Part shown: piece by piece, positions 20,561 through 34,590 of the stretch | How the letters are laid out: the number at the start of each line of letters is the position of its first letter | How positions within the stretch are numbered: the stretch's first letter is position 1 | Source of the DNA: Lampris incognitus | Taxonomy: Eukaryota; Chordata; Actinopteri; Lampriformes; Lampridae | Assembly: GCF_029633865.1 (NCBI RefSeq) | Contig: NC_079219.1 | Location: forward strand, 53,951,898 to 54,015,897 | Direction: 5' to 3' | DNA: 64,000 bases | Translations under genes and position numbers: made by a program | The notes under the pieces: generated by a model | Told to the model about the DNA's origin: nothing | The model's database searches: none | What the model saw: the letters and a program-made list of their open reading frames with translations, nothing else

Positions 20561-20591
20561 AGTTTAGCTAGCTAGTGTAAACTCCTAATAA

Positions 20592-20618
20592 GACCCGTTA
20601 GCCCATAGCTAACGGGTC
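20592..20618 (+). repeat. Perfect 11-bp hairpin inside TRIM LTR
   Basis: GACCCGTTAGC (20592-20602) pairs perfectly with GCTAACGGGTC (20608-20618) across a 5-base loop. The equivalent in the second LTR (20831-20857) has mutations in one arm. A related hairpin occurs in the TRIM relative at 34133-34282. It sits just upstream of the tRNA-like module. Confidence 0.75.
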
Positions 20619-20620
20619 TG

Positions 20621-20695
20621 ACCCTTTAGCCGAGCGGTTAGTGATGTCGCCTTGTGGTGCAGTACACCCCGTATCGAATCCCGCACCGGGCAAGA
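20621..20695 (+). promoter_or_regulatory. tRNA-like pol III module in LTR 1
   Basis: TAGCCGAGCGG (20627-20637) fits the A-box consensus. GTATCGAATCC (about 20671-20681) fits the B-box with two mismatches, at tRNA-like spacing of about 40 bases. The anticodon-loop position reads CTTGTGG (GTG or TGT). The acceptor stem does not pair, so it is not a functional tRNA gene. It could act as an internal pol III promoter. Confidence 0.55.
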
Positions 20696-20859
20696 AAATA
20701 ACCGGTTACACTGGTGGCAGCGGCGGGATCCGGAAGTGTGCAGATCCTCAGAAGTCTCTTCGGAGCGCGGGAATAACAAAGCGCGAGGGCGCGCTTCCGG
20801 GAGAGGGTGACGACTGTAAACTACTAATAACACACGTTAGCCCCTAGGTAACGGGTCTG

Positions 20860-20934
20860 ACCCTTTAGCCGAGCGGTTAGTGATGTCGCCTTGTGGTGCA
20901 GTACACGTCGTATCGAATCCCGCACCGGGCAAGA
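20860..20934 (+). promoter_or_regulatory. tRNA-like pol III module in LTR 2
   Basis: The A-box is identical to that of the first LTR, and the B-box GTATCGAATCC is also the same. The only changes in this part are two bases just before the B-box ('acgtcg' for 'accccg'). Confidence 0.55.
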
Positions 20935-21105
20935 AAATAACCGGTTACACTAGCAACAGGCAGTGACGGACAGCGCCACCGAACTTCGGCCCTGGATCCG
21001 AAATAAATTCGGTTCCCCTGTATCTTCCGGCGAAGGTAGTCAGAAGACGGAGACAGGAAAAATAACACTTGCCACCCCATTTATAAATCAGATAATATGT
21101 TTTTA

Positions 21106-21497
21106 GTCCGCGGTGGCGTAGCGGTCTAAGCATCGGCTTGGTGTCGATGCAGTTGCCCACTGGGGACTGGGGTTCGCGCCCCGGTCTCGTCAGATCCGAC
21201 TATGGCCGGACTCGGTGAAGCAGCAATCATTGGCAACGCTGTCTTCGGGAGGGGGGCGGAGTCGGCTTGTGTTCGTCATGTGAATGCGTCTCTGTGTGTG
21301 TCGGAAAAACAGTGGTTCGGCTTGGATTCGCCTTGTCACGAAAGTGGGGAGGCGCTTTCCTTCGAGACTGCCGGCCGGAGAGATGCAGTTGGCGAATGCA
21401 TGCAATACGAGGGTGGGTGTTTGAATTAAAATAGGGATCAATTGGCCACTAAATTGGGAGAAAAAAGGGAAAAATCAGAAATAAATTTAAAAAAAAA
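21106..21497 (+). mobile_element. tRNA-derived SINE with perfect target duplication
   Basis: The head GTCCGCGGTGGCGTAGCGG contains the A-box. A long variable-arm region (leucine-type class II shape) precedes the B-box-like GGTTCGCGCCC at about 21169-21179. The body is about 220 bp. The tail 'caattggccactaaattggg' is followed by an A-rich end. A perfect 21-base duplication occupies 21085-21105 and 21498-21518, so both boundaries are certain. This is a young, complete insertion. Confidence 0.9.
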
Positions 21498-34132: not shown

Positions 34133-34590
34133 TGTAGCTAATTCGGGGGGCAGCCGGGAACTGCCATAGCCGGGACGCGAACCCGTAGCTCCCGCACCAC
34201 GGGCGACTACGTTAACCAGTCAACTAAAGGGTCCGACCCGTTAGCCTAGAGCTAGCGAGTCTATTTATCCGTGCACGTTACATGCATAATCAGCTCCCTC
34301 GCGCCTCTGGGCGCACGTGCTTCAAATGCCTCGCGGTCTCACCATCCCACTCTGGACGCGGCGGTTCCCGGCTGCCCCCCGAATTCGCTACATTAGTGAC
34401 TGAAGTGGGATGTTGAGATCGTGAAGGACCGTGAGGCCATCGGATGCGTTTCCCGAAGGAGGGGGGGGGTAGTGTAACGTGCACAGATAAAGACTCGGCA
34501 GCCCTTAGCGACCCATTAGTCGACTGGTTAACGTAGTCGCCCGTGGTGCAGGAACCACGGGTTCGCGTCCCCCCCCCCCAATTCGCTATA
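34133..34590. mobile_element. TRIM relative arranged as an inverted dimer
   Basis: On the left is a minus-strand LTR of 150 bp (34133-34282, ends TGTAGC / GTTACA) with its internal piece (34283-34350). On the right, in the plus orientation, are the last part of an LTR (about 34356-34392), a PBS-like TTAGTGACTGAAGTGGGATG (34393-34412), a short centre, a purine tract (34455-34469) and a full LTR (34473-34590, internally deleted). The two halves meet head to head near 34352. The outer flanks carry a 4-bp duplication ATAT (34129-34132, 34591-34594) within a Penelope sequence that is continuous once the block is removed. Each LTR has the hairpin and the tRNA-like A/B-box module of the TRIM at 20576. 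Confidence 0.75.

Follow-up and report, generated by a model that had tools for sequence, protein, structure and literature searches.

A tRNA-like module within the long terminal repeats of a probable Helenus-type TRIM in the Lampris incognitus genome

The window, i.e. the whole stretch of 64,000 nucleotides of Lampris incognitus DNA that was analysed, contains a gene-less element of 374 bp, which was resolved by direct-repeat comparison into two 135-bp LTRs and a 104-bp centre (Table 1). This architecture, with a CTAG duplication at the flanks and a primer-binding site (PBS) one base after LTR1, had been proposed in a sequence-only reading of the window, and all coordinates were confirmed. 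The two LTRs are identical at 128 of their 135 sites, and their divergence of seven sites in 135 (0.052) is about the median of 76 elements sampled from the genome (0.052). Four ORFs of at least 60 amino acids overlap the element, the longest being of 74 amino acids, and no mobility proteins are encoded. Neither AATAAA nor TATAAA is present in the element, and for 5S rRNA, the criterion for Cassandra elements, no Rfam family scored as high as its gathering threshold within the window. One of two 18-base ends with a purine run before TGACGAC was found in 93 of 119 sampled copies. The plus strand of the window copy is without TTTT, the first such run downstream starts 151 bases past the element, and TTTT was present in 2 of 116 sampled LTRs; the missing TTTT was rejected as a sign of selection, since the T content of the LTR is near 0.22 and a sequence of 374 bp is often without TTTT by chance.

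Table 1. Features of the element and of related sequences, in coordinates of the window.
Feature	Position	Strand	Basis or remark
TSD CTAG, left	20572-20575	.	same as 20950-20953
LTR1 (5' LTR), TGTAAAC...GGTTACA	20576-20710	+	direct repeat; genome copies share both boundaries
12-bp perfect hairpin	20591-20619 (arms 20591-20602 and 20608-20619)	+	shuffles, predicted fold
LTR1 A-box-like word TAGCCGAGCGG	20627-20637	+	11/11 letters of TRGYNNAGYGG
LTR1 B-box-like word GTATCGAATCC	20671-20681	+	9/11 letters of GGTTCGANTCC
Internal region, without gene	20711-20814	+	104 bp
PBS matching tRNA-Leu-AAG	20712-20729	+	17/18 letters; one base past LTR1
Purine run GGGAGAGGG, possible polypurine tract	20799-20807	+	7 bases before LTR2; putative role
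LTR2 (3' LTR)	20815-20949	+	direct repeat
Degraded LTR2 hairpin, 9/12 pairs	20830-20858	+	LTR sites 17, 20 and 34 differ
LTR2 A-box-like word	20866-20876	+	identical to LTR1
LTR2 B-box-like word	20910-20920	+	identical to LTR1
TSD CTAG, right	20950-20953	.	same as left copy
F2 diverged LTR	34133-34282	-	
F2 LTR end	34360-34395	+	followed by internal part
F2 LTR	34473-34590	+	

The genome searched comprises 1.48 Gb, in which a 30-mer of the internal region occurred exactly 1765 times (control 0). A search with the whole element gave at least 44 listed matches of 95-100% identity from 2957 first-look candidates. The internal-selected sample drew on 100 listed places of the 1765 30-mer occurrences, all 100 on one contig, of which 80 were fetched after exclusion of nine in tandem copies, four from earlier lists and the last seven. 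From the 119 loci of this sample, 76 were scored, 39 having been dropped in the boundary search and four by length limits; two of its loci, L024 and L025, are one tandem array. The collection of copies with 4-bp duplications, which the earlier reading had called for, resulted in exact duplications for 49 of the 76 scored elements, when about 1 in 256 is expected by chance. These duplications favour NTAN: 35 of the 49 carry T as their second base and 33 carry A as their third. Among the loci of earlier searches, 41 two-LTR elements were scored by script (23 with an exact 4-bp duplication, four two-unit). Another 21 LTRs were scored as solo, nine of them with exact duplications and one of these nine followed by PBS-like sequence, and some of these script-scored "solo" LTRs adjoin internal sequence that the script missed.

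The consensus sequence is TRGYNNAGYGG for box A and GGTTCGANTCC for box B. Words resembling both boxes were indeed present in each LTR, as had been claimed (box A 11/11, box B 9/11, both identical between the LTRs), and a pair of A and B boxes as good and with suitable spacing was reached by none of 500 dinucleotide shuffles of LTR1. Exact matches to both TAG[CT]CGAG[CT]GG and TCGAATCC were found in 99 of 116 sampled LTRs; the boxes are thus present in most of the copies sampled, not missing from them. The commonest form of box B in the main subfamily is off the consensus at two sites. A covariance-model check of the LTR for tRNA, also suggested in the sequence-only reading, was negative: neither the Rfam search nor ARAGORN recognised a tRNA, whether in the element or among the scanned relatives.

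At non-CpG sites, the two boxes together diverged by 0.021 in the internal-selected sample vs 0.039 for the rest (P 0.05), with values of 0.0143 for box A and 0.0263 for box B. Divergence was about as low in the first 15 bases of the LTR (0.0145) and at sites 107-121 (0.0246), so that the conservation of the boxes is not special. The hairpin arms and the sequence that separates box A from box B were the most divergent parts, about 0.053 each. The hairpin was rejected as the part most conserved among copies, its non-CpG divergence being 0.049 and random sites being as low with a probability of 0.90. Hence, the expectation that boxes and hairpin vary less than the rest of the LTR holds modestly for the boxes and fails for the hairpin. 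The presence of a tRNA-like box A/box B module in the LTRs, kept by the copies, is supported.

In the same genome, a gene for tRNA-Leu-AAG (L070) has a 3' end whose last 18 bases, once CCA is added, form the complement of the most frequent PBS, TGGTGGCAGCGGTGGGAT. The match was 18/18 in 69 of 119 sampled copies and at least 17 in 105 of 119, with 17 of 18 for the window copy. There was no sign of the tRNA-like module serving as the element's own primer, since it is complementary to the PBS region over words of 7 letters at most.

On its sequence features, the element is almost certainly a non-autonomous TRIM of the Helenus type (TRIMp3). TRIMs with a tRNA in the LTR were named Helenus ("TRIMp3") by Kojima 2024 (PMC10886601), with hosts including coelacanth, sterlet, paddlefish, zebrafish (LTR-11_DR), carp, goldfish, a catfish and milkfish. 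The earlier statement that no well-described vertebrate counterpart exists is therefore wrong, as Helenus is known in fishes including zebrafish LTR-11_DR (Kojima 2024, PMC10886601); this kind of element is already known, and the element in the window is a further Helenus member. Like the LTR-11_DR-related fish families, it is a TRIM of <1 kb with tRNA-like boxes in the LTR and 4-bp duplications, and it shares with the fish families the use of tRNA-Leu (among the vertebrate primers), a high copy number and tandem arrays (PMC10886601). It differs in box B, which here contains GTATC instead of the conserved GGTTC of that paper, and in the stem-loop beside the module, the word "hairpin" being absent from the paper's main text (PMC10886601). 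The Helenus boxes have been reported as conserved across fungi, animals and plants. Many of the tRNA predictions, for which Censor and tRNAscan-SE were used, are unfunctional, and the sharing of spacer and PBS between animal Helenus and Gypsy elements has been described (PMC10886601).

The plant Cassandra elements are likewise TRIMs having pol III promoter sequence of small-RNA origin in the LTR, yet this is 5S rRNA, whereas it is tRNA-like here. Among such TRIMs, pol III transcription has been validated for Cassandra only, and its transcripts terminate within the 5S portion of the 3' LTR (PMC10886601); the window copy, in contrast, has no TTTT on its plus strand. The tRNA-derived SINEs (SINE2) have a similar box A/box B module, but the element studied here has LTRs and a PBS. 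SINEs are without either of these. They are moved by non-LTR retrotransposons (PMC10886601).

Related subfamilies, F2 and F3, were identified in this genome in addition to the main subfamily. The F2 LTRs are mostly of 152-157 bp, with the form TGTAACGTGC...CGCTACA, and the PBS starts with TTGGTGTCAGAAGTGGG; the F2 search gave 2993 first-look candidates. When flanks were read by eye, exact 4-bp duplications were found at five of 17 single-LTR loci, which equals five of the seven solo-looking ones, at one of three two-LTR loci, and in six of 14 copies of a separate set. F3 is closer to the main subfamily than F2 is, with an LTR that starts with TGTAAACTACTAAAAAGACTC and ends with GGTTACA, or with variants of these, and L202, L203 and L206 have a PBS resembling TGGTGGCAGCGG. 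Among seven printed copies of the F3 module, box B had GGTTC in five and GGTTCGAATCC was present in four. As the main-subfamily box B is off the consensus and F3 mostly has GGTTC, the abundant subfamily has apparently spread with the weaker box. When the majority LTR of the main subfamily was compared with that of F2, identity was highest for the hairpin (86%), followed by the module (71%), the 5' end (50%) and the 3' end (26%). The module is kept in F2 as well as in F3, and F2 has different LTR ends. Within the window, a diverged F2 pair, apparently rearranged or nested, is located at 34133-34590.

An 11-bp perfect hairpin had been described for each LTR. In LTR1 it is indeed perfect, but of 12 pairs, when perfect arms in 500 shuffles did not exceed 9, and for the 38-nt stretch a fold of -21.5 kcal/mol was predicted, as low as in none of 300 shuffles. 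The LTR2 copy is broken at sites 17, 20 and 34, and its predicted fold is without the hairpin. The C at site 20, which makes the hairpin perfect, was present in seven of 152 LTRs of the internal-selected sample, and with the commonest letters of the main subfamily, sites 20/40 form an A·G mismatch (77 of 116 LTRs). Because of this mismatch and the broken LTR2 copy, the perfect hairpin is not typical of the family. An alignment gap within the hairpin of one LTR was found in 20 of the 76 scored elements.

The stem-loop alignment consisted of 22 LTR stretches with related rows, i.e. four from the main subfamily, 17 from F2, and L031. In the proposed structure, 86.1% of cells pair (85.1% in the hairpin helix) vs 34-47% with the partners slid. 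Both-sided changes were present in three hairpin pairs, one in five rows, one in two and one only in L031, which misfits the alignment at that pair. In these related rows, the covariation score was above that of all 500 shuffles, but a number of changed pairs as high was reached by 137 of the 500. Out of 300 shuffles, none folded as low as the commonest sequence of the main subfamily, 36 as low as LTR2 and 24 as low as L071; for four F2 stretches the number was 4-20, and for six F3 stretches 1, 28, 37, 74, 84 and 295, the last one having a deletion. A stem-loop was accordingly predicted at the same place in most folded stretches of two related subfamilies, with limited compensatory change. L071 (C17:8964050-8964850) is a tandem copy with two LTRs in which the hairpin is cut to about 12 bases (AGACACGTGTCT in one of the two) and TTTT is located just before box A; such shrinkage indicates that the hairpin is not strictly needed. 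At 1990-2180 of L031, the module matches F3 and the upstream stem-loop, TTTGGCA...TGCCAAA, is of unrelated sequence; among 50 places listed, this stretch had a full-length match only to itself.

We read the hairpin as an inherited stem-loop that may be under weak or past constraint. A bolder reading is that, in one vertebrate genome, stem-loop and tRNA-like module form a single portable unit common to three Helenus subfamilies, of which one has LTR ends quite unlike the others; the stem would be kept as its letters change, and Leu-primed Gypsy elements that make 4-bp duplications would serve these subfamilies. This we regard as distinctly unlikely; if true, the stem-loop would be a functional RNA part of an LTR retrotransposon started by pol III, with roles such as shielding of the RNA 5' end or help in strand transfer or packaging.

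For a helper element, the pattern of LTR end, spacer and PBS was searched with the main subfamily's own LTR end excluded, which resulted in 50 places, some of them related TRIMs (L071). L069 is an element of the Ty3/Gypsy type that has, in broken frames, fragments of protease, RT and RNase H, and, read by eye, a Tc1-like insertion; its gag-like frame matched no Pfam family. The Gypsy LTR starts with TGTAGTAAACC and ends with TTATTACA, is 980 bp long in one copy, and contains AATAAA. Exact 4-bp duplications, read by eye, were found in three of seven copies (CTTC, GTAT and ATAC), the other four being without. This LTR is unrelated to the TRIM LTR, and the part shared with the window element is the spacer and 18-nt PBS only, with 18/19 identical bases. 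A long autonomous element with the TRIM's own LTR, which would have counted against the sequence-only reading, was absent from the best-scoring loci examined. Elements of the L069 type are candidate helpers on the basis of the 18/19-base match, which the primer tRNA dictates almost entirely, together with the duplication length and the TGTA...TTACA ends. L072 and L073 were considered as a Gypsy 5'/3' LTR pair and rejected, since they share about 1 kb including both flanks and are therefore copies of one repeat array; no purine tract of the Gypsy element was found.

The explanation that we consider highly probable is a Helenus-type TRIM moved as an LTR retrotransposon, with Gypsy acting in trans and a putative pol III start. 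The anatomy, i.e. LTRs, PBS, 4-bp duplications, well over 1000 copies, solo LTRs and tandem copies, points to such movement, and Gypsy-like machinery is very probably what moved the element. That the module serves as a pol III promoter in active copies is somewhat favoured. Transcription would start just upstream of box A, inside the 5' LTR, driven by the tRNA-like module, and, the plus strand of the window copy having no TTTT, would continue across the 3' LTR into the DNA beyond. The RNA would then be primed by tRNA-Leu-AAG at the PBS and reverse-transcribed, and a Ty3/Gypsy integrase would insert the product in trans, with 4-bp duplications and a preference for NTAN. As priming at the PBS and the purine tract would define the ends of the DNA copy, an internal terminator would be unneeded.

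The tRNA-like boxes and the small size would also suit a dimeric SINE moved by a LINE, but this is scarcely credible for an element with exact 4-bp duplications in 49 of 76 cases, a PBS complementary to a tRNA 3' end and TG...CA ends, and with duplications also at LTRs scored as solo. More weight is due to the possibility that the tRNA-like stretch of a Helenus-type TRIM is an old SINE relic, and that active copies use pol II or read-through from a neighbour. The degenerate box B of the main subfamily, the lack of a recognised tRNA fold, and an LTR 5' end conserved as well as the boxes are consistent with a relic, whereas the element has neither AATAAA nor TATAAA, the module is kept across three subfamilies of which one has different LTR ends, and the boxes are conserved across fungi, animals and plants (Kojima 2024, PMC10886601). 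A relic is thus unlikely, if far from negligible.

The hairpin could in turn be a special device, perfected in the 5' LTR by fold-back in reverse transcription. In the first sample, C20 was present in 16 of 47 5' LTRs vs 2 of 45 3' LTRs (discordant pairs 13 vs 1), and an LTR search with C20 in its query gave C20 in 11 5' LTRs vs two 3' LTRs. However, the first sample was partly picked by a query having C20 in its 5' LTR, and in the internal-selected sample C20 was found in 5 vs 2 of 76 (5' vs 3' LTR), with 28 vs 28 private left-arm substitutions and 12 vs 8 hairpin gaps. The asymmetry is mostly ascertainment and receives no support from the internal-selected sample, which leaves fold-back very improbable.

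For the preferred explanation, a TRIM with a putative pol III start and Gypsy in trans, a pol III promoter and an LTR life cycle in one element would test whether LTR retrotransposons can dispense with pol II. Well over 1000 copies, many of them matching the primer perfectly, together with a candidate Gypsy helper make this genome convenient for an animal test of a pol III-LTR cycle.

About 160 bases past the element, at 21107-21250 of the window, a tRNA-like sequence, GGTGGCGTAGCGG ... GGGGTTCGCGCCCC, resembles the head of an ordinary tRNA-derived SINE. For the Gypsy LTR, many of 40 copies listed are located at C1:147.9-149.5 Mb, several of them about 14.2 kb apart, and this region is a long repeat array with the Gypsy LTR and a TGTTAAGAGTTCTAGTG-like minisatellite.
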